The notes under the pieces: model-generated
What the model was told of the DNA's origin: nothing
Database searches by the model: none
What the model saw: the letters and a program-made list of their open reading frames with translations, nothing else
From: Dryococelus australis
Lineage: Eukaryota; Arthropoda; Insecta; Phasmatodea; Phasmatidae
Assembly: GCA_029891345.1 (NCBI GenBank)
Contig: CM057002.1
Location: 18,490,295-18,554,294, forward strand
Direction: 5' to 3'
DNA: 64,000 bases
In this document: one piece after another, positions 1,638 to 64,000 of the stretch
Layout: every line of letters begins with the position of its first letter
How positions within the stretch are numbered: the first letter of the stretch is position 1
Position numbers and translations under genes: made by a program

Positions 1638-2275
1638 AAGACTACTTACGATAAAGTGAGCACTTTTGAAATCAAGATTAGAAAAAAATCAGTGCTTCTA
1701 CCTGCATATATTTGAACGGGCGCACTGAGTGACGTGCGCCCAGTAAAGATGGTAACGATGGAGGGAAAGTAGTTCCGTATCTTAACGTCGAATAAAATGT
1801 GTTAAATAACTATTAGTGTTAACTTAAATTAACACTTTGGCTTTCGGGGCCTCAGTGCCTGAGCGGTTAGACTACCCACCTACCACCAAGGCGAACCGGG
1901 TTCAAACCCCGACCGGGACACACCCGGGTTTTCGCAAGTGGGAATCGTGCTGACAATGCCGCTGATCGGCGGGCATTTTCGGTGATCTCCCGTTTTCCCC
2001 GCCCTTGCATTTTCGCTGACGCTCCATTCTCACCTCATTCGCCCTCATCGGCTCTCAAGACCTCGGTGTTAAGAGCCGCCCAAATCTCACCACTCCACTC
2101 TCCATTCTTACCCTTTCAGTTTTATTTTTAATGCATCTTGAGTGTAAAAATGAGCATATTTGTAGCATGAATAAAGTGATGAGGCGCATGACAATGTTAA
2201 TTCTGCATAAGGCGGAAGAATACACAACGTGCTTACAAGCAGGGCGTTAAAAAAGTGCTCAGTTTACCGCAGTCT
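1638..2275 (-). mobile_element. MITE-A split by a SINE-1
   Basis: Left part 1638-1841 begins with a decayed tip (ACTTACGATAAAGTGAGCAC) and carries the subterminal hairpin GGGCGCAC...GTGCGCCC and the AAAGTAGTTCC block. The right part 2112-2275 has the AATAAAGTGATGAGGC and GGCGGAAGAATACACAACG blocks and ends at a degraded AAGTGCTCAGTTTACC tip. The SINE occupies 1846-2111. Removing it restores a normal MITE-A order. Confidence 0.8.
1846..2111 (+). mobile_element. SINE-1 (tRNA-derived), most complete copy
   Basis: The head is a Ser/Leu-like tRNA relic: A box TGCCTGAGCGG at 1856-1866 and B box GGTTCAAACCC at 1899-1909. The tRNA-unrelated body follows, with GTGGGAATCGTGC, GCCGCTGATCGGCGGG, and an end near CGGCTCTCAAGACCTCGGTG plus a C/T-rich tail. 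It is the reference for nine SINE-1 copies here. It lies inside a MITE-A, with CTTTCG on the left and CTTTCA on the right as a possible short target duplication. It would depend on a LINE elsewhere for movement; no such LINE is visible. Confidence 0.85.
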
Positions 2276-4545
2276 CTCCCGTGTGCACGTTTTCGCCCTG
2301 TCAGAGGAACACACCGGGCAGCACTGATGTGGCCAGCTTGTTCTCAGACGGTTTGTTTCTTGCGCGGCAACAAAGGCGCTCGCTACCTGCTGGGTTCTTC
2401 TCAGAATGGAAACCCAACTGGAAAGCAACTCTTACTCTAACTGACTCCATTCCTAAGAAACAATATCGTAAACTACGGTTGTTGGCATTTCTATACCGTC
2501 GGTAACGCAGGTATGGGTTACACCTACTACTATATCATTACACACCTCAGAAGCCAACGTGTTAATACGACTTTAGGCAACGAGGTTATGGTCGGCCCTT
2601 GTTGCATATTGCCGCTCCACTGATTTAAGATTTTTTTTTAACTACTTTTTGTATACCACGTTTGTCAAACGTGACAGTACTCGCGAGATCACAAGAATTT
2701 TCGATATTAAAGTCTTTGTCATTAGCATCGCAAATAGCAATTATTAGTTTGGTATAATTAATATCGAAATATAAAAAATCTTCCACCCACGACCCACTCC
2801 CATAAACTGCGTTACAAGCATACCCAGTTTTCGTACACGACTTTCTGTGCCGACCAATCACAAGCAAGAAATTATCAACTACTCATTATTTTTTCCATTT
2901 TTTAATATTTCGACACTATGATCAACATATGCATCGTGTGCGAATCTTAGTCACGTGAGAAATAGTTTTAGAAATCAATAATATAATAGAAAAACACGCA
3001 CACAGCCTAGAAACGCGTACTACCTGGTTGAGTTATGCGCTCGTATCTGTTTGGTTATGTAACGGCTTTCTTACTGCACTTGCATACAGCGATCCTCGAC
3101 CCCACAATAGACTCGACTGCGAATATAGCATGATCTTAATACATGGACAAGGGCATATTTTTACGTGGTGTCTACTTTAACATATAAGCCAGTTTTCCTT
3201 TTGGCGTGACACAGCGGGGTCGTTAATGTTTAACGCCTGAGATCAATCACTTGTATACATAAACAATTAACGAGATGCCGCCTGTCTTATGTTTTAGAGT
3301 CAAAATGAGTTGTTCTCGCTTGTAGAGCGGAGAAGCTAATGACGTACCTGGGAAGGAGCAACAGAGCAAATTCACATATCTCGGGCATGCGCAATGCTGG
3401 TTTCACGATACCCGCAGCTGGGTGTAGCGTGTCAGCTTCATCGTAGTACTGCCCGGTTAGGAGGTCCGAGGTTGGTTAGGTTTTTTTTGCCCCTGAGGGA
3501 ATATTATTTTGGGGGGAGGGGGGAATTTAGAAATGTTTATGGGGTTTTTTTTCGGTATTTTGATTGGCGCTGAAGGAGTTATTCTCAATTATTTCTGGCT
3601 ATTACATCCACAGCAAATTATCTGTTATCATTTCTGGCTGTAATAAAACGAATTCACCAACCATCTAAAGGAAAGATCTTAACTGTAGTCCATCCATTTT
3701 TTACAGTGTAACTTATTATATGAATACGTGTAACTTTATATATAGCAATAATTTTTCCATTGCATAGTACTCGCGAAATGAGGTGTTACATACATGAGAA
3801 ATTTTATAGTTGTATTATTAATTTATACGATACTTAAAAGCTGCATAATTCATGCACGAGAGTCAATGTATATTTCCGCGCAATTAAAAGTATTGTAGCG
3901 TATCGGCGCTCACGCCTATGTCACGCTTGAGTTAGTTATTTTTTGCTTCATTTCTAGAGATGTATCTTATGATAATTGGCCCTACTAACATAATTTCTGG
4001 TGATACATTCAAAACGTGAAATTAAAATTATCACATAGTATCAAAGCAACTAACTACTATCAAAACACAAAATTTTTCATAAGGCATGCGCAGAACTACG
4101 TAAATGTCACGATTACGAAACGCATTTATCAGAATTTTAATTACACAAGTTTGTGACTATTTAAGTGCCACGTGCATTCGCAGAAAACCGCGTCGGGTTG
4201 TGATGTGATAAAGTTACAGTAATGCGCCATCACTCAGCTATTGATATTTCTCATTACGGTAACAAGGTATCACATCTGTGAACAAATTGTGAACTTTCTT
4301 TCTTGTATTAAACAACAAAGTGTGAAAATAATCACCGCTATCCAGTCAGTCTGTGATGCGATACTTCCAAATCTAAAACCCGGATAGCCGCTACAAAAAT
4401 TCGTTTGTGCTATTTCAAAATCACTACTACTGAAGTTATTGAATCACAGGTTGCGATTGCTACTTATACGTGCGTGTGAAATTTTCACAGGTTGCAAGAA
4501 AGTAAGCATTGGAAGGGTGCATTTACAAAAGTAAATGAGTGTACA
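2276..4545. other. No gene or recognised repeat
   Basis: A long unassigned stretch. Short open frames at 2255-2505 and 2625-2867 have no recognisable domain. A T-run and G-run lie at 3481-3550. No terminal repeats or splice-flanked exon found. Confidence 0.5.
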
Positions 4546-4960
4546 TGCTTTTAACGATAAAGTGAGCACTTTTGAAATTAACATTAGAAAAAAGTCACTG
4601 CCCCTACCTTCATATATTTTAACGGGCGCACTGAGTGACATGCGCCCAGTAAAGTTGGTAACGATGAAAGGAAAGTAGTTGCGTATCTTAACGTAGAATA
4701 AAAAGTGTTAGGTAACCATATGTGATAACGTAAATTACTACTTTAGATTTTTTTCTAATGCATCGAAGTATAAAATGAGCATATTTGTAAAATATCTCGT
4801 TTTCTAATGATTTCACATTTTCACTTGACCGACGCATGAATAAAGTGACAAGGCCCATGACAATGTTAATTTTACATAAGACGGAAGACTACACAACGTT
4901 TATACAAACAGATCTTGAGCAGGGCTTTCAAAAGTGCTCAGTTTACCGTGAACAGCCTAT
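4546..4960 (-). mobile_element. MITE-A, near full-length reference copy
   Basis: Both tips are recognisable: ACGATAAAGTGAGCACTTTT at the left and GTGCTCAGTTTACCGTGAAC then AGCCT at the right, i.e. inverted repeats of about 30 bp. Interior landmarks in order on the plus strand are AAGTCACTGCCCC, a subterminal hairpin GGGCGCA/TGCGCCC (4624-4647), GTTGGTAACGATG, AAAGTAGTT, CACTTGACCGACGCATGAAT, and AGATCTTGAGCAGGGCTTTC. No open frame could encode a transposase, so it is non-autonomous. This order defines the minus orientation used in this annotation. Confidence 0.9.
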
Positions 4961-5318: not shown

Positions 5319-5558
5319 ATAAGCTGTTCACGGTAAAGTGAGCACTCTTTAAGGCCCTTCCAACAGGTATTAGCCACTAATAAATATACCTTATTACAGA
5401 CTCGGGCATTAAATTTTGAGGGTGGTGAAACGTGTATGCTGCGTTTATTAGTCACAGTGCATTGTTTATATAAAAACCCAGCACGAAGATGTTAATTGGA
5501 TGAAAGGAAAAATTTAGAAGGCCTTATAAAGTGCTCACATTATCGTGAACAGACTATA
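5319..5558 (+). mobile_element. MITE-B (subtype a), full length
   Basis: Tips AGCTGTTCACGGTAAAGTGA (5321) and GTGCTCACATTATCGTGAAC to the right form the same inverted repeat as MITE-A. The interior is different: AAGGCCCTTCCAACAGG, CACTAATAAATATA, a TTTATTAGTCAC block and GATGAAAGGAAAAATTTAG. It is flanked by TATA/TATA, consistent with a TA target duplication. It sits between the two halves of repeat X. Confidence 0.88.
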
Positions 5559-6330: not shown

Positions 6331-6567
6331 TATAGGCCGTTCCCGGTAAAGTGAGCACTTTGTGAAGCTGTTTCATCAGACATAATAACCAATTAATACA
6401 TTTCATTGTGGCCTTGGACTTTGTGTTTTGGGTATGGTAAATGTATAACTGTGTTTATTACTCACGTGGCAGGGTTTACATTAACAATTGGTGGAAGTAT
6501 ATAAATAGGTTGAAAGAAAAAAGTTACTGGGGCTTCAAAATTGCTCACTTTACGGTGAACGGCCTAT
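6331..6567 (+). mobile_element. MITE-B (subtype c), full length
   Basis: Tips GGCCGTTCCCGGTAAAGTGA and TTGCTCACTTTACGGTGAAC, flanked by TATA on both sides. The interior CATCAGACATAATAACCAAT and TTTTGGGTATGGTAAATGTA is shared with the copy at 42.4 kb, defining a third MITE-B subtype. Confidence 0.87.
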
Positions 6568-7598
6568 AAAACTAGTCGTTTATGATACTTGATAAGACAT
6601 CGCGCACATTGGTACCCCTCAAACAAGACTGAAAATGGCTTTTTCCAGTCTGCTATTTCTCAAAATACACGAACCGTATTCATACGTAACCACGATAGAT
6701 GGAGTGAACTATACTTTGCTACAGTGTCGCCGCGTCCAACACAATGATAGGCCCGCCTAGGCGGTCCTTCCATCAGTAGGACGGGGACACTGCAAGCGAG
6801 TTCATAACTTTGCACGTCGAGAAGATATCACTCTAAATACGCGTCATCGACTTCTGCCTCACAGACAGAACCCGCCCGTCAATAGGCGGCAGCCGTTACG
6901 GCGGGTTTACGATTGACTTAACAGAATAAGTGCGCCGTGTAAGATATGATTCAATGAATTCACGGGTATGAGTGTACGACTGTCGCGTGCGGGTCTTGAC
7001 AAGTCAAGACGAAGTAGCCAATCAGCGCCCAGTGACATTTGTTTTTGGCGGGAAACTGTATTTACATCTAGTTTATGTCATATTGTGAAATCGTATGAAA
7101 GTAACCATTTTAATCGAGAGACAGTATTCTCTTAATTTAAATAACGGTTCGTGGTAATGTTTTCTTTCTTGGAAGAGGTTATTGAATTCGCTTTAATTAA
7201 CCTTTTCAGATGTATTTATGTAAATGCCTAATGTTGGCATCAGGCTTCCTTTTCTATACGAAATCACGAGTTTTTCAAAACGATTACAAAAGCAGTAACC
7301 ACAAATAATTAAACATGTCTAAATAATCTCCACTCTAGTCCATATTTCCAGGTTATGTCGGTTGTTTTGGTCTCCTGCGATTCTCGTTGGCTAGACTTAA
7401 CTATTGCCGATTGAATCATAAACTGCAAAGCTATTTACTGTTCATTTTCCGTGTGCTTATCGAGTCATTAAGTACAAATCTTAATTCTTCAGTCTTTAAT
7501 CGTAAACCCACCTTGACAGTACCACATACGGAAAAACAGTTGAAGATCTATAGTTGCATCTTATCTCAATTCGTCGGCCACAGGAGATGTTCGCGTGT
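6568..7598. other. No gene or recognised repeat
   Basis: Moderately GC-rich around 6720-6920, otherwise AT-rich. No frame of note other than one that runs into the SINE downstream. Confidence 0.5.
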
Positions 7599-7850: not shown

Positions 7851-8244
7851 TATAGACCATTCAAGGTTACTTCCAACTTTTCCGAAGCCCTGATAAAGTT
7901 CTACTTCCAAGATATTCCTCCGCCTCATGCAAACAAAGCTTAACCAAGTCTACAAAATTACACCCAATGGACAACGCACCCAGTGTAATAATAGTTTGTA
8001 TACGGTAGGAACTATTTATTATTAGGTATTACCAACACACATAACTTCTCATTGTTTTATTCATATTAATTATAAATGAAATATTATGAGTTATAGATAA
8101 AATATAAGCAATATTTTATGTTAACGGAAGTATTAAACGCTTGTGATACATGGCATATTCAGGAAACAACAAAACACGTCGTACATGGGGTGATTTTTCA
8201 AAGGTTTGATTCGTAAAGTGTGAAGAAACAGCGAATAGACTATA
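7851..8244 (+). mobile_element. MITE-C, full-length reference copy
   Basis: Tips TATAGACCATTC and GAATAGACTATA form a short inverted repeat (about 12 bp, one mismatch). The left block reads CCGAAGCCCTGATAAAGTTC, CTCCGCCTCATGCAAAC, AAAGCTTAACC. The right block reads GGGGTGATTTTTCAAAGGTT. The left block resembles the AGCCCTGCTTAAGATCTACT ... TTCCGCCTTATG end of MITE-A, so the families appear related. No coding capacity. Confidence 0.8.
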
Positions 8245-8460
8245 GCGTGTCATGGTTAATACACTGCACTCTCATTCGGGAGGTCCCGGGCTGGATTCCC
8301 GGTTGTGACATCCTGATGTCGGCTTTCCATGGTTCTCAGACATCACTCAAGTCAGTGACAGGGATAGTTCTATGACGCGGGCATAACTACATACTCTCCC
8401 GCGCTCCAGACTATCCGAGCAACGGTACGTGAAGCCACACACACATAAATACATATCATG
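8245..8460 (+). mobile_element. SINE-2, directly abutting MITE-C
   Basis: CTCATTCGGGAGGTCCCGGG, a mutated B box GGCTGGATTCCC and CATCCTGATG with a TTCCATGGTT body match the SINE-2 at 250-417. It ends in ACACACACATAAATACATA, a simple A-rich tail. The head is degraded. It starts at the MITE-C tip, so insertion at or into that terminus is likely. Confidence 0.65.
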
Positions 8461-8529
8461 TCGTAGTTCTGAAAACCCACAGAGGGCAGAGTACTTGACT
8501 TTCACCTCGCGAAAAGGACACAAGCCAAA

Positions 8530-8946
8530 CGATGTTCACGGTAAAGTGAGCACTAATAAATTCAAGCTTTGGAAACTTTCACCGTCCTTACCTGTATATA
8601 TTTGAACGGGCACACTGTGTGGCATGCGCCCAGTAAAGTTGGTAACGATGAATGGAAAGTAGTTCCACATCTTAACGTCGAATAAAAAGTGTCAGGTAAC
8701 CATGTGATAACTTAAAATTATTTCTTTCACTTTGTTTTTTTTTATGCATCGAAGTGTAAAAATGAGCAGATTTGCAAAACATTATCTTCAGTAATAATTT
8801 CACGGTTGCACTTGACCGACGCATGAATAAAGTGATGAGGCCCATGGCAATGTTAATTTTGCATAAGGCGAAAGAATATACAACGTGCATACAAGTAGAT
8901 CGTAAGCAGGGCTTTCAAAAGCGCTAATTTTACCGTGAACAGCCTT
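8530..8946 (-). mobile_element. MITE-A, full length
   Basis: Tips ATGTTCACGGTAAAGTGAGC and TAATTTTACCGTGAACAGCC. Interior blocks follow the 4.5 kb reference: GGGC(A)CACTG...TGCGCCC hairpin (weakened), GTTGGTAACGATGAATGG, CACTTGACCGACGCATGAAT, AGTAGATCGTAAGCAGGGCT. Confidence 0.9.
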
Positions 8947-10238
8947 TACCTAACTTGATGCGGGGAATATTTCTACAATGCTGGATGTTTTTCAGTCAAC
9001 TGTAATGCGCCTTTCCAGTGCACATCTGGAGGGGCGCAATGAGGCTGTAGTTGCCTGGTTGAAAATTTGACTTGTTAACGAAATTCTGTTTTTTCGGCGT
9101 TCCTATTTTGGGCAGAAAAATAAGTACTTGTTTGCTATCGAGTTTCCTGGGAAAAAAATACTGAAAATTAATAATTAAATTTAAAAAAATACTGAAAAAC
9201 AGACTGTTATATTTGTCTTGATACAGAACTTGAAAGTATAATTTCTCACGCCAGGTTTTCGTTTCAAGTTTATATCTTCAAAACTGGCTTCAAAAAACCG
9301 AATTTCATTTACATGTATTTCCCTATAGCAAACACTCAATCAGGCAGCAGTTATACGGTAATATTTCTACTTTTTTTTTAATTCGGTTATCTGAATGAGC
9401 TTTCGAAAAGTTTTAGTTGTCAAATGATTATAGTTTTCAAAATATAACACTCAAAACTTTTTAAGTTCCCGAATTCTGCAGAATACTAGGCTTTGCTCCT
9501 AGATATTTTTTTTTCCAGTCAAATTGCATTTAGTACATTCTGTAGGGTGTGCAAACCATATTGATTCAGTATGAGTGCGAGTTATAAACAGGTGAGCGAG
9601 TATTGGCGCTCTGAATTTTGTTGAAAATAGGGGTCAGACTTGTCGTAAATATATTTTTGTTCATTCAAGCGAAACTGTTAACATTCATTTAATAAACAGT
9701 TTAAACCATAAACTGCAGAGGGGAAGTTGTTTTTGTTCATTTCGTAGCTTGTAACACAAATGCAGTATGCCGCGCTTAGGCTCTAATTCAACACTGAACT
9801 TGCCTATAACACTCTTGTGTCGGATTTTGAGTGTTATGCAAATTTGAAGCAAGAATAATAATGTTACAGTCGTCTCGAATAACAACCAAATACAGAATTG
9901 ATATCCTGTATATTGGCTCTGGAATCAACTATCAAATTACAACACAACCTTCATGTACCACAAGGGTGTATTCCTCCTAATGAGTTCCCTTCACCAACTG
10001 TAATTTCACTGTCAACTGACAGTCACGTATGTGTGAATCACTCTTTATGTATTCATTGGTGCAGGCGAACAGTTTTTTTCCTAGTTCGTTTGGTGCAGGC
10101 GGATTGGCCGTATAATACCACCAACATCATACTACGACACGCATTAAAAATTCGCTGTTATCTATGGACCAATTAATAAAATAAAGAACAGAAAAAATAA
10201 CAAAACCAAAACCGATTATTACGGCAAAAAGATTTATT
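8947..10238. other. No gene or recognised repeat
   Basis: Begins with an imperfect hairpin (GCGCC...GGCGC around 9008-9040). The rest is AT-rich with T-runs near 9370 and 9510. A 92-codon frame at 9898-10176 shows no domain. Confidence 0.45.
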
Positions 10239-10690: not shown

Positions 10691-10936
10691 TATAGGCTGT
10701 TCATGGTAAAGTGAGCCCTTTTGACGGCCTGGTTACTTTTTCATTTTTGCCATTTTTTTCCCCCCCTTTAATGTCCTTTTTAAAATAAATACTGCCATGT
10801 AAGCAATAAACACAGTGTGAATATTCCACCGCACTCGGAAAATAACGCCTAAGGCTACAATAAAATATATTTATTGTCACTATTATTCCGAATGAGAGGG
10901 CTTCCAAAAGTGCTCAGTTTACCGTGAACATCCTAT
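10691..10936 (-). mobile_element. MITE-B (subtype b), full length
   Basis: Tips GGCTGTTCATGGTAAAGTGA and GTGCTCAGTTTACCGTGAAC, flanked TATA/TATA. The interior includes AAACACAGTGTGAATATTCC, CGCACTCGGAAAATAACGCC and ACAATAAAATATATTTATTG, the reverse of the subtype b copy at 35 kb. Confidence 0.88.
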
Positions 10937-11550
10937 AGGTACAGGCGGCACGACGAGAATGGTGCGCGTCTGTGCAGCGAGAACCTTGTGCTTAGAGGCG
11001 TAGGCGCACTTCATGTGCGTGACGTTGTAGCACTTATCGCCCCCGTGCTTCTCGGCCTCAAACGCTCCAGGTATGTGGACCTATTATCGGAGTGGAAATT
11101 TCCGTCGTCTGAATCGTAAAAATTAAGCAACGTACGTGGGGGGGGGGGGATGAATATAAAGGGTCTTTTATTTCCTTTCTTGACGTGACTAGTTAACTAA
11201 ATTTAATAACTATGCGTTTAATTTATTCTAATGTACCAAAGTTGACTTCCACAAGAAGGTCATGCGCGGCCGTTAGGAAGTTGCACGCGATGACCTTGAA
11301 ATGTTTAAACACAAACAAAAACACACACGTAACTGAATTTCTTGTAAGTTGTGTACAGTGTATCTGCAACACGGCAGTATTATTACGGACTGAGCTGAGC
11401 TGCATATGCCACTTTGTATCGTTCCTTTCCTCTGAAAGATACCGCGCAACGAAATTTTAAATCTGTTTTCTTTTATTTATTCGGACTTTATTTATAACGG
11501 CAAAGTTCAGGCTTCGATGCCTTACACTTAACCAGGTATAACATAGTGTA
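10937..11550. other. No gene or recognised repeat
   Basis: A G-run at 11140-11149 and short opposed frames at 11212-11460. Nothing recognised. Confidence 0.45.
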
Positions 11551-11943
11551 AAGGCTGTTTGTTCATGATAAAACTGCCCCTGCCTGCATATATTTTAATG
11601 GACGCGTTGACCGACACGCGCCCAGTAAAGTTGGTAACGAAGGATGGAAAGTAGTTCCATAACTTAACGTCGAATAATAAAAAGTGTAAGGCAATCATCT
11701 GTGATAATTAAATTATTTCTTTCGCTTTTGTTTCCTTTTTATGCATCAAAGTGTAAAAATGAGCTGATTTATAAAATATTTACATTTATAATTATTTCAA
11801 AGGTTCACTTGACCGACGCATCAACAAAGTGATGAGGCCCTTGCCAGTGTTAATTTTGCATCAGGCGGGAGAATATACATTGCGCATACAAGTAGATCTT
11901 AAGCAGGGCTTTAAAAAGTGCTCATTTTACCGTGAACAGCTAT
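11551..11943 (-). mobile_element. MITE-A, left tip damaged
   Basis: The left tip is GGCTGTTTGTTCATGATAAA and then jumps straight to CTGCCCCTGCCTGCATA, so about 40 bp of the usual subterminal region is deleted. The right tip GTGCTCATTTTACCGTGAAC is good. The hairpin arms are GGACGCG/CGCGCCC, differing from the usual GGGCGCA/TGCGCCC at a base pair on both sides. Confidence 0.88.
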
Positions 11944-12426: not shown

Positions 12427-12724
12427 ATAGACGGTACACGGTGAAGTGAGATCTCTTGAAATAAACCTCTGAAAAATGTCACTGCCCCTGCCAGTCTACG
12501 TACATTTTAACGTGCATACTGACTAGTCTGCGTCCTGTAGAGTTGGTAACACACGAGAGAAACCAGTTCCACATCTCAACGTTGAATAAAAATATTAGTT
12601 AAATGCTCCTGGATAGCGAAATTTCGCAGTTTAGCGTGACCGACGCATGAATACGCAATGTACATAGCATTAAAGTAGATCTTAAGCAGGGCATTCGATA
12701 TCGGTTTACCTTGAACAGCTATTA
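12427..12724 (-). mobile_element. MITE-A, internally deleted (about 298 bp)
   Basis: Left tip TACACGGTGAAGTGAGAT, then GTCACTGCCCCTGCC and GAGTTGGTAACA. The middle third, including the ATGCATCGAAGTG block, is missing. The right end AGTAGATCTTAAGCAGGGC and TTTACCTTGAACAGC is retained. Strongly diverged, presumably old. Confidence 0.8.
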
Positions 12725-13370
12725 CTTGGCTATTATTGTATAAATCGAAACAACTCGACAAGTTGTTTCGTTTGGCATCGCTCAAGGTCATTCGTGCTCC
12801 CATCGCAATCGTATATTTGATCGAACGAGGACACGTTCATTCGAATCGTGTTATTAGCCAGGAAGTCGTAGTGTCGGTAATGGAAGACCCTGCAAACGTT
12901 AAGAAGTCGTTTCCGAGCTGGCACGTCATTGCTCCGTTAAAATTATTCCTATAATGTATTCACATTGAAGCAAGCGTGTACACACGCACGCACACTAACT
13001 ATACAAAAAAAATGGTTTTACTGCTTTGCACTGTAAGTGGAGTCCCCCCCCCCCCCAACCCCACCCAGCCATCTGGCCGGGTACTTTGTAGTAATAACCA
13101 ACCGTCACCCAACAGAGCGATTTTCAAACTTTCGATACTCGCGGACCTCAGGAGAATAACGAGGGTGAGAAATGATGGGACCTGGAAACTTTTTTTTTTT
13201 AATATTTTGTTATAAAAAATTCATAATTTTTATTATTTGAAATTAACAGCATGAATTTACGAATTGCAAATTTTACAGTCATATCTACAACTGACTGACT
13301 CGAACTGATTTAAATAATTTTCCTTTACCGCCGCGAACCGACGGCTGAAAACCGCTCAGCTATTCTCGGT
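12725..13370. other. No gene or recognised repeat
   Basis: C-run at 13045-13056 and T-run at 13190-13200. Opposed short frames at 12733-12954 overlap each other and show no domain. Confidence 0.45.
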
Positions 13371-13607
13371 ATAGGCTGTTCATGGTAAAGTGAGCACTTT
13401 TTAAGGCCCTTATACATTTTTCCTTTCATTTAATTTCCATTTTCCTGCTGCTTTTTAATATAAACATTGCAATGTGACAAACACAGTGTATACGTTTCAC
13501 CACCATCAAAATTTAATGCCCGAGGCTGCAATAATATATATTTAGTAGTGGTCAATGCATGTAGAGAGGGCCTTAAACAGTGTTCACATTATCGTGAACA
13601 GCCTGTA
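13371..13607 (-). mobile_element. MITE-B, diverged
   Basis: Tips GGCTGTTCATGGTAAAGTGA and GTGTTCACATTATCGTGAAC then AGCCTGTA. Reading TATAGGCTG...CAGCCTGTA supports a TA target duplication outside a TAGGCTG-type tip. Interior ACACAGTGTATACG and GCTGCAATAATATATATTTA are subtype-b/a like. Confidence 0.85.
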
Positions 13608-14262: not shown

Positions 14263-14348
14263 ATCCCGCCGGCACACCGGGCTAAACATAGTTTCACGTC
14301 TATTCCCGCCCACACACACACATCTGTTCGACTCGCTACTGGGTAAAG

Positions 14349-14546
14349 AGACTGCTCGCGGTAAAGTGACCCATTTTGAGGGCCATTTTTTTTAAAAATA
14401 AATATTGCCATATAAGAAATACACCGTGTGTGTATTCCATCGCAATTGGAACTTAACGCCTACGGCTAAAATATAACATATTTATTTACCATTATTCCGA
14501 ATGAGAGGGTTTACAAAAGTGATCACTTTACCGTGAATAGCTTATA
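14349..14546 (-). mobile_element. MITE-B (subtype b), slightly shortened
   Basis: Tips CTGCTCGCGGTAAAGTGACC and GTGATCACTTTACCGTGAAT. Interior ATATTGCCATATAAGAAATA, GGAACTTAACGCCTACGGCT and CATTATTCCGAATGAGAGGG. The stretch next to the left tip is deleted. Confidence 0.85.
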
Positions 14547-15652: not shown

Positions 15653-16086
15653 ACTACAGTCAGTTCACGGTTACTTCAAACTTTTTGAAACCCTGCTCAA
15701 GTTCTACAATCACGCTATCCTTCCGCCTCATGCAAACAAAGCTTAACCGAGTCTAGAGAATATATAAAGGGACAACGCACCGCATTCGTGCGCACTCAGT
15801 GCAATCATATTTGGCACAAGAATTATTTATTACTAAGCATTACCAACACACATTTCTTCACTGTTTTATTCATATTAATTATAAATTAATTATTGTAATT
15901 TTTATAAATAAAATAATTAATTAATTTTAACTGAACCAAAAACTAGGTTCTTTAAATTTTTTTCATGTTAACTCAACTATAAAACGTTATAAACTACGTA
16001 ATTAGGAAACAACGAAAAACGTCCTACATGGAGTGATTTTTCAAAGATTTAATACAAAAACGGTGAAGAAACAGCGAATAGACTAT
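15653..16086 (+). mobile_element. MITE-C, full length
   Basis: Begins CAGTTCACGGTTACTTCAAA and GAAACCCTGCTCAAGTTCTA, then CCTCATGCAAACAAAGCTTA. It ends GAGTGATTTTTCAAAGATTT and GAAACAGCGAATAGACTAT. The interior carries ATAATTATAAATTAATTATT, AT-rich as in other copies. Confidence 0.82.
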
Positions 16087-17771
16087 CGTTAAAATGTATT
16101 AAAGTTGCATTGAAACTTGCCAAGACGCAGTGAACTCCTACGTTGGGACACGGAGTGTGGTTTATGCGCAACTCGAATGCGTACTCTGCCCCAGGTCACT
16201 CTGCCCCAGGTCACATCTACGTAGTCATCACGTCTTTAGCTAACGTAATACTGTTCTCGGGCGCGCGAACATTCTCTCGGAAAAACACCACGAAAGCTAA
16301 GTAACCGTATTTTAGGCCATTTTTGTGCAAAAATGGTAAGTAAATACGATGATGGGCGGAAACTGGAAACGTTAACCACTGAATGGACGCCATACGTTGT
16401 CATGATGTTACTCGACAATCCAGATTTAATTAATGTATCAAAACCTTATGGAAAATTTGATGCGGAGTGTACGCTCGTTGTAAATTTGTGAACAATCATT
16501 CGCTAATTCGACGGAGCATTTATTATTACTACATGTAAAAATACGATTTTTTTAAGTATTGGAAACGTGAATAAATCGTTAACGGCCAAATAAATAACTT
16601 TTCTCTCGACAAAACGAGGTAAGAGCTGATCTAGGCCTTACAATGCTACTTACAAGCTGTTGAACTCGAGATATTGAAAAGTTAACGGTCGTAAATATCA
16701 GTTAAGCGTTTCGCAAGCCAGGTGTGTGTGTGAAGATTTGCTTTGCAGCCAGACTATAATTCTGAAGCTCGTGGGTTTGATTCCGCACATCTAGACTGTG
16801 GCTTGTTTCACTCTAATGTCCGTGATAAACTTCTGATCAGTTAATTACATGTAAAAGGTTAACAGAGGAGTTGACAGAAAAAAGCCCCTACAAAGTAAAT
16901 TACATTCCGAGATCATGGTAGGTAATGGTTTTGAAGACTACTGTTTGTAATAAAAAAAAATACACGTCAATATCTACTAATAGGAAATACTCACTTTAAG
17001 GGAATAAGGGAATGACTACTATATATAATAAACGAAATCAAAGGAACTCATTTTTTTCCACAATATATAATTTTTCTAATTTGGTAGAGAATTTTTTTGC
17101 ACCCATCAATATAATCAATAAATTCAGTTCAAATGTTCTCCTTATTCCTGAAATAAACAAAACCAATCACAAACAAACATTACAGACAATATTATTCTGT
17201 CGCCATCTTTCGTTCTAACATTTCTTTTAGCAAAAAATAGAGCACAAGGTATCAATAATTACAAGATGTCAATCACTAACTGAAATATCAACATTAAATG
17301 TTTGCAAGCAATAATATAAAACCTGCTATTTTTTTTTTTTTTAATTCTGATAATCTGATTATTTAGAAAGGAAAATTAAAGCAACTTCCAAAAATGCTCT
17401 GCCATACAAAGTTGAATTTTGATGAACACCAAAATCCAGACACGCTTGCTAACTGTGAATGCTTTATCGGCTTCAGAATATACATAATGGTAGCAGTGTA
17501 GGTCCACAAACTAAACCATAACATCGTGAGGAATCTAGCTATAAATACCTAATTGTTACGGACAACTGGAACACGGTAAACTTTTTGGTGGGAGAAATAC
17601 CTTGACTTAACTAAATCCTTTCTTCCAGTCAACTCCCCAAATGCAGTCGATCGCTCCGTATCGTAAACTGGTGGGAAGTAGTAGCATGAGGGGGTGGAGA
17701 GGAGGGAAGTGCAGTAATATGGCCGACCTAGGTGGAGTTGACACATCATGGTATAGCAAACATTATGGTAG
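16087..17771. other. No gene or recognised repeat
   Basis: Contains a tRNA-like B-box GGTTTGATTCC near 16772, possibly a SINE relic too decayed to assign. T-runs at 17329-17342. Otherwise AT-rich and unassigned. Confidence 0.4.
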
Positions 17772-19541: not shown

Positions 19542-19688
19542 CACCAGTTTAATAATATTTTTATTTTATCGAAGAAGAAGGCAGAGGGGAGGAACGCCAA
19601 AATATTGTTCGCTTATTACACTTGCAAACTGTCAAGGACTGTCCTGGTCGCAGAGCAGTGACACGATTGCGCTTCCAACTGTGTGGAC

Positions 19689-43025: not shown

Positions 43026-43062
43026 ATATGCCGTTCGTGATAAAGTGAGCACTTTTGAATCC
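43026..43062. repeat. Solo MITE tip
   Basis: ATGCCGTTCGTGATAAAGTG then AGCACTTTTGAATCC is one A/B-type terminus with no element attached; the next terminus starts at once in the same orientation. Confidence 0.75.
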
Positions 43063-51035: not shown

Positions 51036-51396
51036 ATAGGCTGCTCATTAAGACCTACTTGCATGCACAATGTAAGCCATATGTAAGATTGCCATGGGCC
51101 GGTAAAATCAAAACACTGAAATTATTATAAAAGCAAATATTTAAAAAATCTGCTCATTTGTACACTTTGACGAATTAAAATAAACAGAAAGCGAAATAAA
51201 TAATTTAAATTATCACAAATAATCACGTAACACTTTTTATTCGACTTTAAGTTATGGTGCTACTTTCTCTCCACCGTTACCAACTTTACTGGGCGCAAGT
51301 CACTCAGTGCGCCTGTTAAAATATATGCAATTAGGAGCAATGACTTTTTTTCTAAGGTTGAGTTCAATAGTGCTCACTTTATCGTGGACAGACTTT
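51036..51396 (+). mobile_element. MITE-A with damaged left tip
   Basis: TATAGGCTGCTCATTAAGAC joins the outer tip straight to the CTACTTGCATGCACAATG block; the GGTAAAGTGAGCAC part is deleted. The right end CTTTACTGGGCGCAAGTCAC and GTGCTCACTTTATCGTGGAC is good. Confidence 0.88.
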
Positions 51397-52312
51397 ACGA
51401 TGTTACAGCGCCGGAATGGATCATCATGCAAACGTTTCATCGACATTTCCGTCCTGGCACCACGAGTGTGTCTGATTTTAAACACGTATTCGCGTTTAAA
51501 AAGAATTGGGAATAAGTACGAGATGAAACGTGGCCAGCAAAGAACAGAAGAAGGCGTGTATACATCGTGTGTAGGATATAGTTGAGTGCGCCCGCCATTT
51601 GTTACTGCTGCCGGCCTGGCGAAACGTGACGTCGATATCGCCTCCAGCCATGACGATGGGTTGTTACGTCAAATCCCGGTTCACACCATCCCACACTTCT
51701 CTACACGCTTACACGACCATACATACACGTGGTATGGCCTGTTATGAATGGAACACCACTGCAGCAGATTCCTAGCTTGGAGTTAGTTTATAATTTCGCG
51801 CTTAATATTAAATTAATGCTGTAATTTTTTTTTTTTTCGAAACAAGTCCAGTCTTAAATATTACGATATTCATTATTTTTCTCTCCTTCCTCGACAAGAA
51901 AAACGGTCTTTATTCTTCCCCCCCCCCCCTACTTTTAAAGACGACGCATATTCAACGAAAATAAAAACTAATTTCGGGTGCCATGTCGCACGGTTAAGCA
52001 CAAGCATCCCTGGTTTTCGCGTTCCGAACCACTTGATCCAGACTGCGATGTCGAGAGGGTGGGCTCGGCGAGTATGGTAATGGAGGACCCGGATCTCGCA
52101 ACATTCTGATTACCCCACGGGTAATTACATGCTGCATGTACGGCGTCCCTTAGCATTTCCCGGACTGACCTAGAAGGAATAAGAGGGAGGGAGATGAACA
52201 CACAGTATATCGGACTGTGTAGGGGTGGAGAAACTGCAACTAGTTCACGCTGTCCGCCGCCCTCTAAAGCCATTTGGCTGCGTGGAGTGAATGACTGAGA
52301 TACACGCAAATA
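51397..52312. other. No gene assigned
   Basis: C-run near 51920. A 131-codon minus-strand frame (51968-52363) runs into the next MITE and has no domain. Confidence 0.45.
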
Positions 52313-52552
52313 TGAACTGTCCACGATAAAGTGAGCACTTTTTAAGGCCCTCCCAACAGGCATTAACCACTAATAAATATGTTCTATTGCAGCCTCAGAC
52401 ATTAACTTTTGAGAGTGGTGAAAGTATACACCGTATTTATTAGTCACGTGACAACGCTGATACTAAAAAATGTCTTAAATATAAAAATTGGCTTAAAAGA
52501 AAAAATTGGAAGGAGCCTTAAAAAGCGCTCACTTTATCGTGAACGGCCTATA
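52313..52552 (+). mobile_element. MITE-B (subtype a), full length
   Basis: Tips AACTGTCCACGATAAAGTGA and GCGCTCACTTTATCGTGAAC. Interior GCCCTCCCAACAGGCATTAA and GTTCTATTGCAGCCTCAGAC. Confidence 0.88.
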
Positions 52553-54799: not shown

Positions 54800-55150
54800 A
54801 TGAGCAATTCACAGTAAAGTACGCACTTTTGAAAAGAAAAATCACTGTCCGTTAACGCATATATGCTAATGCACACATTAGCACGTAAGTAGGCTCTCAG
54901 CAAAGTTTGCAGCGAATCAAATAAATTAGTTCTATGTCTTTAAGTTGTATTGCGATAGTATCTTTCAATTGACAACAAATAAAGACGATGTGTTTTTTTT
55001 TTTTTTTGCTTCATGCACGTTTGAATATGAATCAGCATATTGGTAACACAATTACAGTCCTCAAAATGTTACGTTTCCCACTGGATGGTGCACGAATAAA
55101 GGGAAGCGGTCCGTGACAATGTCAACTTGCGCATATGGCGGAAAATACAA
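54800..55150 (-). mobile_element. MITE-A, old diverged copy
   Basis: CAATTCACAGTAAAGTACGC, AAAAATCACTGTCC, CTTCATGCACGTTTGAATAT, TGGATGGTGCACGAATAAAG and GCATATGGCGGAAAATACAA retain the block order. It is cut off on the right by the next MITE-A in opposite orientation. Confidence 0.65.
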
Positions 55151-55154
55151 TTAT

Positions 55155-55581
55155 GGGCTGTTCACGGTAAAATGAGCACTTTTGAAAGCCCTGCTTAAGA
55201 TCTACTTACTTATATGCTTGTTGTGTATTCCTCCACCTTATGTAAAATTAACGTTACCATAGGCCTCATCACTTTATTCATGCGTCGGTAGAGTGAAAAC
55301 TCGAAATTATTACGAAAGTAAATACTTAGCAAATTTTCTCATTTTTGCAATTCGGTGCATTAAAATTAATTTAAAAAAAGATGAAAAGTATAATTTAAGT
55401 TATCACAAATGGTTATGCGACACTTTTTATTTGACGTTAAAATATGGAACTACATCCCCTTAGTTACCAACTTAACTGGGCGCATGTCACTCAGTTCACC
55501 CGTTAAAATATATGCGGGCAGGGGCAGTGACTTATTTCTAAAGCTGATTTCAAAAAGTGCTCACTTTATCTTGAACAGCCT
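55155..55581 (+). mobile_element. MITE-A, full length, inserted at the end of an older MITE-A
   Basis: Tips GGCTGTTCACGGTAAAATGA and GTGCTCACTTTATCTTGAAC. GCCCTGCTTAAGATCTACTT, AGGCCTCATCACTTTATTCA, CTTAACTGGGCGCATGTCAC. Much better preserved than its left neighbour. Confidence 0.92.
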
Positions 55582-55721
55582 TTGCAAGCAAGTTTGCGTG
55601 TATTCCTCTGGCGTACGCCCATGCGGGTGGCGCTTGTACGTACAGGAGAGGTACCTTCATCTTGTGTGCGAACCTATCACTCGGGGCGACCGCCTTACCA
55701 ACCAACCAGCTGGCGGCCCTC

Positions 55722-56038
55722 TATACACCATTCACGCTCACTTCCAACTTTTCTGAAGCCCTGCTAAAGTTCTACTTTCAGGATATTCCTCCGCCTCCCA
55801 CAGACAAAGCTTAACCTAGTCTACAAAATTACATCAAAGGGACAACGCGCCGTATTCGTGCGCACTCAATGTTCTAACAATATTTTGCATAAAAACAGTT
55901 TCTCACTAGGCAGTACCAACATAAGTACTTTCTCCCTAATTTTATTCACATTGACTATAAGCGAAACATTATAATTTATAGAGAATACGAGTAAAATTTC
56001 AATTGAACCTAAAATTAGGTAATTTTGTGATAACACGA
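55722..56038 (+). mobile_element. MITE-C, right end missing
   Basis: TATACACCATTCACGCTCAC, TTTTCTGAAGCCCTGCTAAA, GATATTCCTCCGCCTC and ACAAAGCTTAACCTAGTCTA. The AATCAAACC end is absent; sequence changes near 56038. Confidence 0.78.
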
Positions 56039-56278
56039 CTCTCTGTGTCAGAGGTAAAGGGGCACTATGTCACACATATGAAACTTTACAGGAGTGCTCT
56101 GTGGCACGACACCATTATGGCACATCCTTTCCTAGACGCTAAATAGCTTATTATTCCGTGTAGGAGAGAGTGCTTTGTGCATCCGCAAAGAGCATAAGAA
56201 ATACAATAAAACCTCAGTTTTGTAAAACCTCCAATAGCACAGAAGTACAAAACGATTTTTATACGCGGCACGTTTAGG
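56039..56278. other. No gene or recognised repeat
   Basis: Unassigned spacer. Confidence 0.4.
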
Positions 56279-56412
56279 AAACTAAACACAGTGTGTACAT
56301 TTCATCGCTCTCAAAAGTTAACGTCTGAGACTGCAATAAAAAATATTTATTAGGTGTTAATGCCTTTTGGGAGGGCCTTAAAAAGTGCTCACTTCACCGT
56401 GAACAGCCTATA
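56279..56412 (-). mobile_element. MITE-B, right half only
   Basis: AAACACAGTGTGTACATTTC, AACGTCTGAGACTGCAATAA and GTGCTCACTTCACCGTGAAC then AGCCTATA. The left tip and neighbouring half are missing. Confidence 0.82.
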
Positions 56413-56838
56413 ACAAGCTAATCCCAGAGGAAACCTGTTCACGCCACGAAATGGAGAAGAAGTAGACCCAAATATAGTCTTCAGCGCGGACCTGTCTGTG
56501 CACAGTATTTTAAAACAGGGGTCTTGCTCTGGTAGGGGCGCAGTGTATCCTTGATCCTCTGCCGAGTCGCAAGCCTTTTTTTCCCCTTCATGAGAAATAT
56601 TCGTTTAGATGCCTGTGTTCGTTTCCAACTCGAGTTTTATTCTGTCGGAGTTTACTTTATGCAAGTTTCGTTCGTCTTTGTGACATCAGCAGGTGTTTTC
56701 CGCGGTCGTGCACAATTGCAAACAAAACGTTTCAAACAGTTGCCCATCGGAAAGTGATCTAGGGCATGCATGAGAAGGGCACGCTGTTCGTGCCCTTGGC
56801 TGACGAGGGCACTCCAGGGTGCATAATGTCAGGTAGGT
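56413..56838. other. No gene or recognised repeat
   Basis: A 68-codon frame at 56551-56757 has no domain. Confidence 0.4.
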
Positions 56839-57077
56839 ATAGGCTATTCACGTCAAAGTGAGCACTTTCGAAAGCCCTCTCATTTGAAACAATAGTCAAT
56901 AAATGTGTTTTATTTTAGCTGTAGACATTAACTTCAGAGTGCCGTGGAATATAGACGCTCTGCTTGTTACTTACATAGTATTATTTATTTAGAAAGGTGG
57001 TTAAATGATAAAAGATGGGTGAAATAAAGAAGTAACTAGGGCCTCAGCAGTGCTCACTTTACCGTGAACAGCCTATA
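56839..57077 (+). mobile_element. MITE-B (subtype b), full length
   Basis: Tips AGGCTATTCACGTCAAAGTG and GTGCTCACTTTACCGTGAAC then AGCCTATA. Interior GCCCTCTCATTTGAAACAAT and TTCAGAGTGCCGTGGAATAT. Confidence 0.9.
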
Positions 57078-59242: not shown

Positions 59243-59356
59243 ACCTCAGGCTGTTCACGTTCAAGTCAGCTCTTTAGACAGCCCTGGTTATTTTTTTCCT
59301 ATCGGCAATTTTTTTTTTTTTAATCCTTTAACCACCTTTTTGAATAAATATTGCCA
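59243..59356 (-). mobile_element. MITE-B, left half, cut by a MITE-A fragment
   Basis: AGGCTGTTCACGTTCAAGTC, TTATTTTTTTCCTATCGGCA, TTTAACCACCTTTTTGAATA and AATATTGCCA. The MITE-A tip starts at this point and the rest of the MITE-B is absent. Confidence 0.82.
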
Positions 59357-59411
59357 AGCTGTTTAACGATAAAGTGAGCACTTCTGAAATCAACCTTACG
59401 AAAAAGTCTAA
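59357..59411 (-). mobile_element. MITE-A, terminal fragment
   Basis: GCTGTTTAACGATAAAGTGA, GCACTTCTGAAATCAACC and TTACGAAAAAGTC, then unrelated AT-rich sequence. Confidence 0.82.
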
Positions 59412-60150
59412 TTATTTCCTTTATTATTATTATTGCAATTTTCTTACAATCATTTTGACGATCTTCCTTTAGTATTTTCTTGCAAATTCTGCTTTCGGAA
59501 GCATCCAAAACGGAAATGCGCCCAAATTTTGTTACAAAAGCGGACTCTGCCGATTGTTTTTTTTTTTTTTTTTTTTTAACATTTAAAAAGTATATTTTAG
59601 TAAAATATTTTATAACGTAGCAAGATATATACATTCTTCTTTCGTATACGGCATAAATCGCACTTTTCTGACCATTTTCATGGCGTCTGTACTACTTCTT
59701 TACCAGTTCTTCATATTGTATAGTCAGGTGCAGTGCTCCATAGGCAGTTGATTTATTTTGAACCTTAAAAGCATTTCTACTAGCGTTGTATGTAAAAAAA
59801 AAAAAAAAAAAAAAAAAAAATGCAAATCCGCACGCTGTTCGCGCTTTGTTATACATGGGGTTGGCACATATTCGGAAAGTGTTTTGGATACATTGTGTTT
59901 AGGTTCAACCCTAAAATTAATAAACGTCATGTACATGCACAGCCAACATTTATGAAACAAACTTAGACCAATTAGCTAGTGATGATGGTGAGAAGTGTAT
60001 TTACAGTTATGAGGAAGCATTGGAAACACTGAAAGAGCAAATGTGCGAGCACGTTTATAGTTATTTGCGATTTTAATTAACAATTAAAGTACCTGCATTA
60101 AGCATCAGCATTGAAGAATTATGTGACTAAATAATTGTTTAGGTGGTCAA
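59412..60150. other. No gene or recognised repeat
   Basis: T-run at 59558-59578 and A-run at 59794-59820; frames here are made by these runs. Confidence 0.45.
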
Positions 60151-60580
60151 AGGCTGTTCACGATAAAGTGAGCAATATTGAAATCAACCATACAAGATAG
60201 TTACTGTCACTACCCTGCATGCATTGTAACGAGCGCACTTAGAATGACATGCACCCAGTAAAGTTGGTAATGATGGAGGGAAAGTAGTTCCATATCTTAA
60301 CGTTGATTTAAAAGTGTTAGGCAACCATTTTAAATAACTTAAATTATTAATTTCGCTTTCCGTTTTTTTTTATTGCATCGAAGTGTAAAAATGAGCAGAT
60401 TAGAAAAATAATGATTTTTGTCAACAATTTGTCACTTTCACTTGTTGACCGACGCGTGAATAAAGTGATGAGGCCCACGGCAATGTTAATTTCACATAAG
60501 GCGGAAGAATACACAACGTGCATACAATTAGATCTTAAGCAGCATTTTCAAAAGTGCTCATTTTACCGTGAACAGCCTAT
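60151..60580 (-). mobile_element. MITE-A, full length
   Basis: Tips GGCTGTTCACGATAAAGTGA and GTGCTCATTTTACCGTGAAC. Interior GTTGGTAATGATGGAGGGAA, ATTGCATCGAAGTGTAAAAA, TTGACCGACGCGTGAATAAA, TTAGATCTTAAGCAGC. Confidence 0.93.
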
Positions 60581-60716
60581 AGCAGTCAACGAAAAGCAAA
60601 GGTCACTGTGACGTCTTGTCTGACAATCTCAGCCCGACCAAGCAGTACTTCCCGTCGCGATGCGCAAAGCATTCAAGTACATTACAAAACAAAATTTCCC
60701 GTGTATTTCCCTACTG

Positions 60717-60990
60717 TTGCTTCGCATTTTTCTGAATCTCTGCTAAAGTTATATTTCCAGGATATTCCTCCGCCTCACGCAAACGAAACTTAACAGAGTC
60801 TAGAAAATTTCACCAAGGGGACAACGCATCGCATCTGTAGGTATTGCCAACATACATATTTTCTATTTGTTTTATTAATACTAATTATAAATTGAATATT
60901 ATGGCTTATAGATAAGATATTAATAAAATTTCAATTTAACCAAAAATAAATAAATATTATAAAACGAGTATAAAACACTTGTGATACGTG
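60717..60990 (+). mobile_element. MITE-C, both tips degraded
   Basis: GAATCTCTGCTAAAGTTATA, GATATTCCTCCGCCTCACGC, AACTTAACAGAGTCTAGAAA, GGGGACAACGCATCGCATC. The right end fades after AAAACACTTGTGATACGTG. Confidence 0.75.
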
Positions 60991-61444
60991 CCAAAATCAC
61001 GTTTCTGTTTGTTTTTAAATACTTGCTTTCTCTAGCATGGAGTCAAATATTGTCAAAAGCAAATAATCATTCATTTATCGCGAGTTTTAAATCGCAAAAT
61101 ATTGGATATTGTACGGATAACTTGCCGGCCAGATATCATCGGGCTGTTGTGAGCACTGAATAAAATACCAGATAACATGCCGTCGTTCTGTGACGTCATG
61201 TCGGGCTGTCGTGGCGTGTTTGTCGGGCTATTGTGGGGACCTTCACCCGTCATAACGAATTCATGGTTTTCCGAAATTGTTTATATTTTGAAAAGAAAAC
61301 TAGGAAATAGCCCCAATTGTAACTGGCTGGCCTATTGAACTCGCGCAGCAGCACAGCCATAATCATTCAACTACAAACTCGTATTCGTGTTACAATAATG
61401 ATTTTGCCAAATTTTTGCAGATTTAATTATCTAACGTAACTATG
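60991..61444. other. No gene or recognised repeat
   Basis: GTCGGGCT appears twice near 61200-61230. Nothing else noted. Confidence 0.4.
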
Positions 61445-61825
61445 AATTCGCAGTCTCTTCGCACTTTTTGAGTCAAACCTATGGAAAAAAATTACCTCAT
61501 GTATGACGCGTTTGATTATTTCCTAAACATGTAATTTATCACAAACCTCTGTTAAGAAAAAAAAAACTTATTTTGTGTTAAAATTGTAGTTTAACCATAT
61601 TTCCTTTATAATTTATAGTACATTTATAATAAAGACGCAAAAAGACAGTGAGAAAACAAATGTGTTGGAGGCCTAGTAAGAAATAGTTCTCAGGCAAGAT
61701 CTAACAACCTCCGTGTAATTTTGTAAACCTGGCTAAGCTCAGTTTGCACGAGGCGGAGGAATATCCTAGAAGTAGAACTTTATCAGGGCTTCAGAAAAGT
61801 TGGAAATACCCGTGAATGGACTATA
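61445..61825 (-). mobile_element. MITE-C, full length
   Basis: CTTCGCACTTTTTGAGTCAA, AATTACCTCATGTATGACGC, core, GTTTGCACGAGGCGGAGGAA, AGGGCTTCAGAAAAGTTGGA and the tip GTGAATGGACTATAG. Confidence 0.82.
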
Positions 61826-62400: not shown

Positions 62401-63677
62401 TGTCTATGCTACAGTGCAAGTTCAATTACTAGTTGGGCTAGGGCGAGTTACAATCAGGTTAGGAACAATACGGCACTTCTTATGGGAGAGTTTGGTATAG
62501 GGACAATTACCGCCGCTAGGTGCGCAATGTTCCAAAAAATTACTTTTAATTAAAACTTTAAGCTACGCGAATAATAAAAGAGAAGGATTTTACTCAGTTA
62601 CGAAGTTGTGTATCTGATTTATGATTATTAAAACTATCGGGATTTTTTTTTACTTAGTAAATACACAAAACCTGGTACGTTGCCGACACTAGCGCTTACC
62701 TAGTGGCGAATATTTTTGTTTGCCAAACTTTTCACATTGATCTTCCCAATCTGTAGTAGAATAAACATCAGTTGGCCGTGGCGGTACGTTCGGAATTATC
62801 TATTTGACGTGAATAAGTCTTTAAATTTGCGACCATAGTAGGAGGCAACTCAGAAAATCAGATGATAACAAAATCGGGAGATAGTTTGGAATTGCAACTC
62901 CGAATCTATCGTCTACATTCGTAATTCATTTACACCACTCGATTGTCAAAGGATCAAAGAATATGTTAGGTTGAGTGAGGAATGTGAAGCTTCAAGGGTG
63001 GGGGATGGGCCCGTAATTCTTAGTTCGTATCGCCACGTCTCATAACTTCCGCGTAGTATAACTTTCGACTAGGAGAAGCTACGACTCTCGTTTCATTTTC
63101 AATCGACAGCTCTCAGCGATATCAATCGATTGCATGTATAAAATATATGCGTAGCGTGGTTTTGGTGAAGTTGTACGAGTTTAATGTAAAAATTTAAGAA
63201 AACTTAACAAATGTAGGCATATACTCGTCAAAAAGCCAAGTCGAAACACAGAAATCGTATACGGTTGGAAAGAGCGTCTCAAAAGGAATCCAGTGATACC
63301 CATAAAACCCCATATGATCGAGTGAAGCAGTGCCGGGAACATAAAATAAACATCAAGGCGTCCGAGCGCGCCAACGTAGACGTATTCACGCAAAACAAAC
63401 GGCCGTGTCCTCAACACAGCCAAACCCCAATTTTTAAAAACATAAAACGGGCTAGTGATAGGAAGAATCCAATATGGCTCGGGGCAAGGTTCCCCTTAGG
63501 CAGGCTGGCGGATGGGTTGCGTCAGCGTGAAGACAGTTCTCGTCGTGGTCAGTGTTTGAGAACTGTTACTTCCTGGCTGTATCAGTAGACGAGGCATGCA
63601 AGAGACGTGAGAGCTACTTCCTGTCTGCAAACACGATCCGCTGACTGCGGCGACACACACACTGCCACGCCATTTCG
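62401..63677. other. No gene assigned
   Basis: AT-rich, with an 80-codon minus-strand and a 107-codon plus-strand frame at 63181-63588 overlapping each other. Neither shows a domain. Confidence 0.4.
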
Positions 63678-64000
63678 TAGTTCACGATCAAGTGAGCGCT
63701 TTTGAAATCAACCTTGGAAAAATTTCACTGCTCCTGCCTGGCATATATTTTAACGAGCATTCTGAACAACATGAGCCCAGTAAAGTTGGTAACGATGGAT
63801 GGAAAGTAGTTCCATATCTTAACGTCGAATAAAATATGTTAGGTAACCATCTGTGGTAGCTTAAATTATTTCTTTCGCTTTGTTTTTTTTTTTTTTGTTT
63901 TTAATATACCTAAACGTAAAAATTAGCAGATTTATTAAATATTTACTTTTCTAATAATCTCACACTTTGGCTTGTCCAACGCATGAACCAAAAGTGGTAA
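63678..64000 (-). mobile_element. MITE-A, truncated by the window end
   Basis: TAGTTCACGATCAAGTGAGC, AAATCAACCTTGGAAAAATT, GCCCAGTAAAGTTGGTAACG, GTTAGGTAACCATCTGTGG, CCAACGCATGAACCA. The last 50-100 bp lie beyond the window. Confidence 0.9.

Follow-up and report, generated by a model that had tools for sequence, protein, structure and literature searches.

Two tip core types on a shared subterminal block in three families of miniature inverted-repeat elements from a stick insect genome

A 64,000-base stretch of the Dryococelus australis genome (contig CM057002.1, positions 18,490,295 to 18,554,294; hereafter the window) is crowded with short elements of three families, A, B and C, which raise the question of how repeats that appear to be built from interchangeable ends are related. 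A preliminary description had suggested that one transposase line mobilized several internal sequences or that elements swapped ends. In the reading that we consider likely, the three families are non-autonomous, cut-and-paste miniature inverted-repeat transposable elements (MITEs) that belong to a single lineage with TA as its target, most likely one of Tc1/mariner: A and C descend from it as sisters, B has left-type tips on either side, and one transposase specificity serves A and B while a sister one serves C.

Copies, tips and subterminal blocks

With up to four mismatches, the tip GGCTGTTCACGGTAAAGTGA occurs 57 times in the window. At up to six mismatches there are 68 tips, 53 of which form 27 facing pairs of 193–429 bp, the other 15 being unpaired. 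In a comparison of the window with itself, repeat segments linked into groups of 25, 17 and 10 members corresponded to A, B and C as previously delineated. We built profiles from 16 A, 5 B1, 8 B2 and 8 C copies, B having been divided by eye into B1, B2 and B3 from the copy alignment. At a cut-off of E ≤ 1e-3, these gave 59 non-overlapping matches, reduced to 55 loci (26 A, 18 B and 11 C; Table 1) by joining four split matches by hand (1641/2105, 12427/12620, 25603/25885 and 35456/35684); the earlier figure of about 50 loci is therefore correct. The same profiles found no match in the reversed window sequence. The C loci at 585 and 22701 are weak (27.9 and 37.2 bits). Together the 55 loci cover 15,654 bp, or 24.5% of the 64 kb.

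The consensus sequences measure about 423 bp for A, about 215–240 bp for B and about 420–430 bp for C, with significant inverted tips (z 6.9–12.8, 0/500 shuffles each). Short length, inverted tips, many copies and a lack of coding capacity in the reading frames searched are the features of MITEs. The mean Kimura two-parameter distance to consensus is 0.151 for A, 0.133 for B1, 0.134 for B2 and 0.175 for C (12 A and 14 B copies being among those used), and 0.078 for B3, from two copies only. These distances suggest that the copies are old, B perhaps slightly younger; with family means ~13–18% off consensus, amplification has apparently ended or slowed down.

To place the families relative to one another, the consensus sequences of A, B1–B3 and C were compared end by end against shuffles (45 pairs per stretch for the tips and positions 29–90). 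At tip positions 15–36, all 12 A–B end pairs are alike (z 4.8–7.1, 0/200 shuffles each), as the preliminary description had it for A and B, and C is unlike A or B (z −0.1 to 1.7). At positions 29–90, the left ends of C, B1, B2 and B3 resemble that of A with z of 9.0, 4.6, 3.3 and 3.4, and those of B1, B2 and B3 resemble that of C with z of 4.1, 3.3 and 4.4 (≤1/200 shuffles each). Over positions 37–130, the left block is homologous between A and B1 (z 5.6), A and C (z 5.5) and B1 and C (z 4.3; 0/500 each), and it occupies the same place and order in all three families. The relation of the C block to A that had been noted is thereby upheld; the companion claim, that the interiors of A and B are wholly unrelated, fails on this shared left block. 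On the other side, A-right resembles C-right at positions 29–90 (z 3.5, 1/200).

These blocks also bear on whether A, B and C might be independent MITEs made alike at their tips by the demands of one transposase. The tips are the most similar parts of A and B, and at positions 29–90 A-right has no homology to B1-right or B3-right and a weak likeness to B2-right (z 2.4, 4/200), both as convergence would have it. However, the collinear homology of the left blocks past the tip already disfavours such an origin, which we judge very improbable.

The difference between C and the other families lies mainly in a tip core of 8–9 bp. The core reads RTAAARTGAGC-ACTTTT in A and B, and GTTACTTCCA-ACTTTT (left) and GTTTCTTCAC-ACTTTT (right) in C. 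The C left tip has the outer TTCACGGT and the inner ACTTTT as in A; the C right tip is less A-like, with TTCGCTGT followed by ACTTTT. The claim that C has different tips thus applies to the core, at both ends, but not to the outer and inner parts, which resemble A. The core is of its own family's type at 36 of 37 A ends (one tie), 32/32 B ends and 16/16 C ends. None of the 30 two-ended pieces (14 B, 11 A and 5 C) mixes core types, so the window shows no trace of A/B and C having recently exchanged ends.

A separate feature of the core is its symmetry. Most of the B consensus tips, and the right tip of A, have AAAGTG-AG-CACTTT as a perfect inverted repeat, of which the B tip at 37506–37532 is an example. 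The repeat is imperfect in the A left tip and lost in C. This core may be a two-fold binding site.

We also assigned individual copies, using 12 A and 14 B copies for tip affinity and, region by region, the ends of A (15 left, 12 right) and of C (seven on each side). Copies entered these counts by judgement that the ends were present, and the A copy at 12430–12720 was excluded from both assignments. In every A end (15/15 left, 12/12 right), the tip is nearest a B consensus and the subterminal block nearest C. Six of the seven C left ends score best with A-left, the remaining one having a deletion there. On the right of C, A-right outscores A-left in all seven, B2-right being the best match overall for one of them. 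The right tips of B, over 44 bases, are nearer A-left than A-right in 14/14 copies, and B therefore has left-type tips at both ends. Its left tips are nearer A-left in 12 of 14, with two ties. As a control, A-left tips were assigned to A-left and A-right tips to A-right (12/12 each).

The pairing in A of B-like tips with C-like blocks, at all 15 left and 12 right ends, is what would be expected of a true modular exchange, in which recombination, or template switching during gap repair, gave B-type tips to C-like ends (or the reverse) and tips and blocks have separate histories. Coral CMITEs, which have different terminal inverted repeats (TIRs) and a shared interior, provide a precedent (PMC2872659). 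We nevertheless regard such an exchange as unlikely. C keeps TTCACGGT at the left end and ACTTTT at both ends around the changed core, so that a local co-change is a better fit than a tip swap; both ends have the change, no two-ended piece is mixed, and constraint on the tips alone could keep those of A and B similar. Each of the two suggestions made at the outset consequently survives in part. End-swapping gains from the left-type right tip of B and from the B-type tips on C-type blocks in A, but not from the unmixed A/B and C pieces; a single transposase line moving several interiors agrees with the matching of A and B tips at both ends, but not with interiors that are partly homologous.

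In the explanation we favour, a single master lineage would have given rise to A and C as sisters, each with its own two ends retained, and B would have kept the left ~110 bp, a copy of the left tip having replaced its right tip. The core common to A and B would let a transposase encoded elsewhere pair the two ends of either element; C would have been served by a related enzyme of altered binding preference, before amplification ceased or slowed. It is possible, and we propose it only tentatively, that the clan records two steps: a switch of the tip core in concert at both ends (from the A/B to the C type, or the reverse) with the subterminal blocks kept, and the origin of B as a natural left-left element, a preferred end replacing the other.

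Several observations weigh against this derivation. Because the copies share ancestry, they do not provide independent observations for the counts of 15/15, 12/12 and 14/14, and some B tips prefer A-left by one point only. At positions 37–130, the left blocks of B2 and B3 are weaker than that of B1 (A–B2 z 3.1, 2/500; B2–C z 1.9, 21/500), and A–B3 does not reach significance there (z 1.2, 67/500). Other stretches give a lower score for A-right against C-right (z 2.5, 10/500; z 2.7, 2/200), and A-left also pairs with C-right at positions 29–90 (z 3.1, 0/200, among 45 pairs tested). In this comparison without an outgroup, symmetric tips as in B could be the ancestral state, from which A and C became asymmetric. 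Finally, no transposase or longer element was seen in the window, where the Pfam search covered 10 of the 173 stop-to-stop open reading frames (ORFs; at least 70 aa) and returned no match at curated cut-offs, only sub-cut-off matches.

A longer coding element was also sought among facing unpaired tips within 8 kb. The only candidates, 48124–51393 and 54803–56408, were rejected because each joins parts of copies from different families, with further copies lying in between. Rfam gave no match in the window at gathering thresholds, the exact tip pattern had no match in collections of genome contigs and viral contigs, and an A copy had none among phages. The three tip strings were absent from the literature searched, where sequence strings seldom get printed.

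Target site and superfamily

The flanks of 13 B and 13 A copies were compared at shifts of 2–15 with flanks swapped between copies, and no shift stands out beyond the TA/TATA common to nearly all copies. The largest excesses, for which no significance was computed, are 38 matches versus 32.5 expected at shift 11 in B and 53 versus 46.3 at shift 13 in A. In end logos made from 28 B, 13 A-left and 13 A-right ends, T-A occupies positions −4 and −3 in all three sets, and position −5 and outward show no strong preference. Position −2 is T in B (25/28) and A-left (9/13) and A in A-right (8/13). Since this base varies by end and not by copy, it is part of the element, which therefore begins TAGGCTG (AAGGCTG at the A right end) and leaves TA as the duplication.

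The target duplication is most likely TA. Together with an element that begins TAGGCTGTTCACGG, it indicates Tc1/mariner, the most likely family. A paralogous empty site for the A copy at 12430–12720, whose tips are degraded, reads GATA-TTTGGC versus GATA[element]TA-CTTGGC when filled, which fits a 2-bp TA duplication. The four paralogous sites as a whole are less uniform: one fits TA, one is ambiguous and two are not clean, and a fifth junction match (23030) sits in a microsatellite and is uninformative.

That the elements come instead from a different superfamily whose target is short and TA-like, or make a 4-bp TATA duplication, seems to us quite unlikely. TATA flanks both sides of most B copies, and the nested site at 43067 is ambiguous; however, the left and right flanks of A are consistently unlike at position −2, on which ground the 4-bp TATA duplication was rejected, and the empty site of the 12430 copy fits TA. 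Counting against Tc1/mariner membership are the nested B copy at 43067–43299, whose empty site fails to fit by one base whether a 2-bp or a 4-bp duplication is assumed, the paralogous sites for 5322 and 15664, which fit no duplication cleanly, and the fact that a single feature, the TA duplication, carries the superfamily assignment.

Other duplications were considered and rejected. A TTAA duplication (piggyBac/Kolobok) disagrees with junctions of TA/TATA, TTAA occurring in single flanks only, e.g., left of 39207 and 44158. For a 3-bp TWA duplication (PIF/Harbinger), shift 3 gave 2 matches versus 1.9 in B and 10 versus 9.2 in A, and position −5 is unconserved. Shift 7 likewise has no excess (B 16 versus 16.7, A 18 versus 17.6). 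For an 8-bp duplication (P, or hAT, the type of maize Ac/Ds), the flanks of the 13 B and 13 A copies show no clear surplus of matches at shifts 8, 10 and 12; shift 10 in B comes highest, with 47 versus 43.3 of 130 positions.

Loci and other repeats in the window

The window has a GC content of 39.5%, its longest start-to-stop ORF is at most 195 aa, and it looks like repeat-rich, animal-like DNA with tRNA-type short interspersed elements (SINEs). A SINE-like family with a tRNA-like head, recognized by eye, comprises eight linked segments (1846–2095, 7597–7789, 19684–19848, 24447–24537, 31675–31900, 40048–40261, 41206–41327 and 48638–48762), and one copy is inserted within the A element at 1641–2269. 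Its reading frames presumably resemble predicted proteins of stick insects (Dryococelus australis). ARAGORN calls a tRNA-Ala (CGC) at 344–416 on the minus strand, directly followed by a tail resembling a second SINE type (window 245–416); the call is probably a SINE head and not a tRNA gene. We further observed a pair of ~413-bp repeats linked only to each other (13768–14180 and 28352–28763, the second adjoining A at 28765), a two-copy dispersed repeat of ~260 bp (5622–5876 and 30886–31145) and a TATA-type microsatellite of ~440 bp at 57489–57932. The D. australis genome has 38.5% GC and 63% repeats, mostly unclassified (PMC10268593), values with which the 39.5% GC of the window would agree.

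Table 1. Profile matches to families A, B and C, in positions of the whole window
Family	Position	Strand	Description
A	1641..2269	-	interrupted by tRNA-type SINE (~1846-2095)
A	4543..4960	-	full length
A	8527..8947	-	full length
A	11573..11942	-	without right end
A	12427..12722	-	internal deletion, degraded tips; paralogous empty site near 50770-50885
A	19172..19542	+	both ends
A	20083..20437	-	both ends
A	21320..21394	+	left subterminal fragment
A	23027..23451	-	full length, adjoins AT microsatellite
A	25154..25372	-	left part
A	25603..25966	+	both ends, abuts B 25388-25603
A	27812..28210	+	both ends
A	28765..29180	+	without right tip
A	32200..32247	+	left-end fragment
A	33536..33656	+	fragment
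A	38882..39183	+	decayed
A	39204..39638	+	full length
A	39779..40056	+	left and middle part
A	41722..42128	+	full length
A	44155..44548	-	both ends
A	51041..51396	+	without left tip
A	54804..55148	-	decayed, without left end
A	55153..55583	+	full length
A	59357..59408	-	right-end fragment, abuts B fragment
A	60149..60580	-	full length
A	63680..63996	-	right and middle part, near window edge
B1	5319..5558	-	full length
B3	6331..6568	-	full length
B2	10691..10937	+	full length
B1	13370..13606	+	full length
B2	14347..14546	+	both ends
B1	20965..21202	-	full length
B2	25388..25603	+	both ends
B2	34971..35206	-	full length
B2	35985..36200	-	both ends, adjoins C copy
B1	37503..37740	-	both tips identical to the tip of the preliminary description
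B3	42357..42575	-	both ends
B	43025..43059	+	left end of outer copy; interrupted by 43064-43302 copy, resumes past 43302
B2	43064..43302	+	nested within B copy
B2	48120..48315	+	without right end
B1	52312..52552	-	full length
B1	56276..56411	+	right half
B2	56838..57077	-	full length
B2	59248..59357	+	left part
C	106..252	-	right part
C	585..792	+	C-like fragment, weak, 27.9 bits
C	7860..8245	+	full length
C	15664..16088	+	full length
C	22701..22934	+	C-like fragment, weak, 37.2 bits
C	35456..35977	-	both ends, two pieces
C	45411..45763	+	nearly entire model covered; left end aligns poorly
C	49099..49452	-	decayed, both ends
C	55731..56042	+	without right end
C	60714..60993	+	without right end
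C	61446..61816	-	both ends

Relation to known elements

The general kind of element is well known, and families with shared interiors and different TIRs have precedents. The clan resembles non-autonomous Tc1/mariner elements, including Stowaway-type MITEs, in its TA duplication, short length, lack of visible coding capacity, inverted tips of ~30–45 bp and many copies. The tip of Stowaway elements differs from the one here, TAGGCTGTTCACGG, for which no master was seen and membership is inferred. Stowaway MITEs have been linked to mariner (PMC6881990), and Acropora CMITEs, like the clan, combine conserved blocks with different TIRs, with several families in one genome. Unlike the clan, CMITEs have TTAA duplications and are piggyBac-linked; their interior is conserved and their TIRs vary, whereas here the subterminal block is conserved and mainly the 8–9 bp tip core varies (PMC2872659). 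The P-MITEs of Anopheles gambiae likewise have TIRs common to a transposon family, and their origin has been explained by internal deletion and repair from ectopic sequence, but they belong to the P superfamily, are not TA elements and have a likely master family (PMC1562414). Maize Ds differs from the clan in its 11-bp TIRs and known master (PMC3260210).

Despite the difference in setting, the mariner transposases offer a comparison for the core and for the doubled tip. In Mos1, bases 15–18 are contacted by the linker, and further in the inverted repeat is contacted by HTH1 (PMC4505599). In vitro, two preferred ends outperform the natural combination by a factor of 26 in Mos1 and of 2 in Mboumar-9, and two poorer ends perform worse (PMC4505599). 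By distance from the tip, the core change between A and C lies in a part comparable to the Mos1 contact region. B, with one tip type at both ends, resembles laboratory constructs of Mos1 and Mboumar-9 whose two ends are the same; those were assayed in vitro, whereas B is natural and known from sequence (PMC4505599). By analogy, the two left-type tips of B could be a natural case of a doubled preferred end. For bamboo Ppmar2, TIR affinity is described as influencing transposition (PMC6696609).

A survey of 98 insect genomes listed 6012 MITE families, ~95% of them novel at the time (PMC5199201). MITEs usually reveal little about how their ends changed. Two matched core types on homologous subterminal blocks, together with an element of doubled tips, make a natural series for testing the evolution of transposase binding and end pairing, and the clan, which makes up a quarter of a 64-kb stretch, helps genome annotation.

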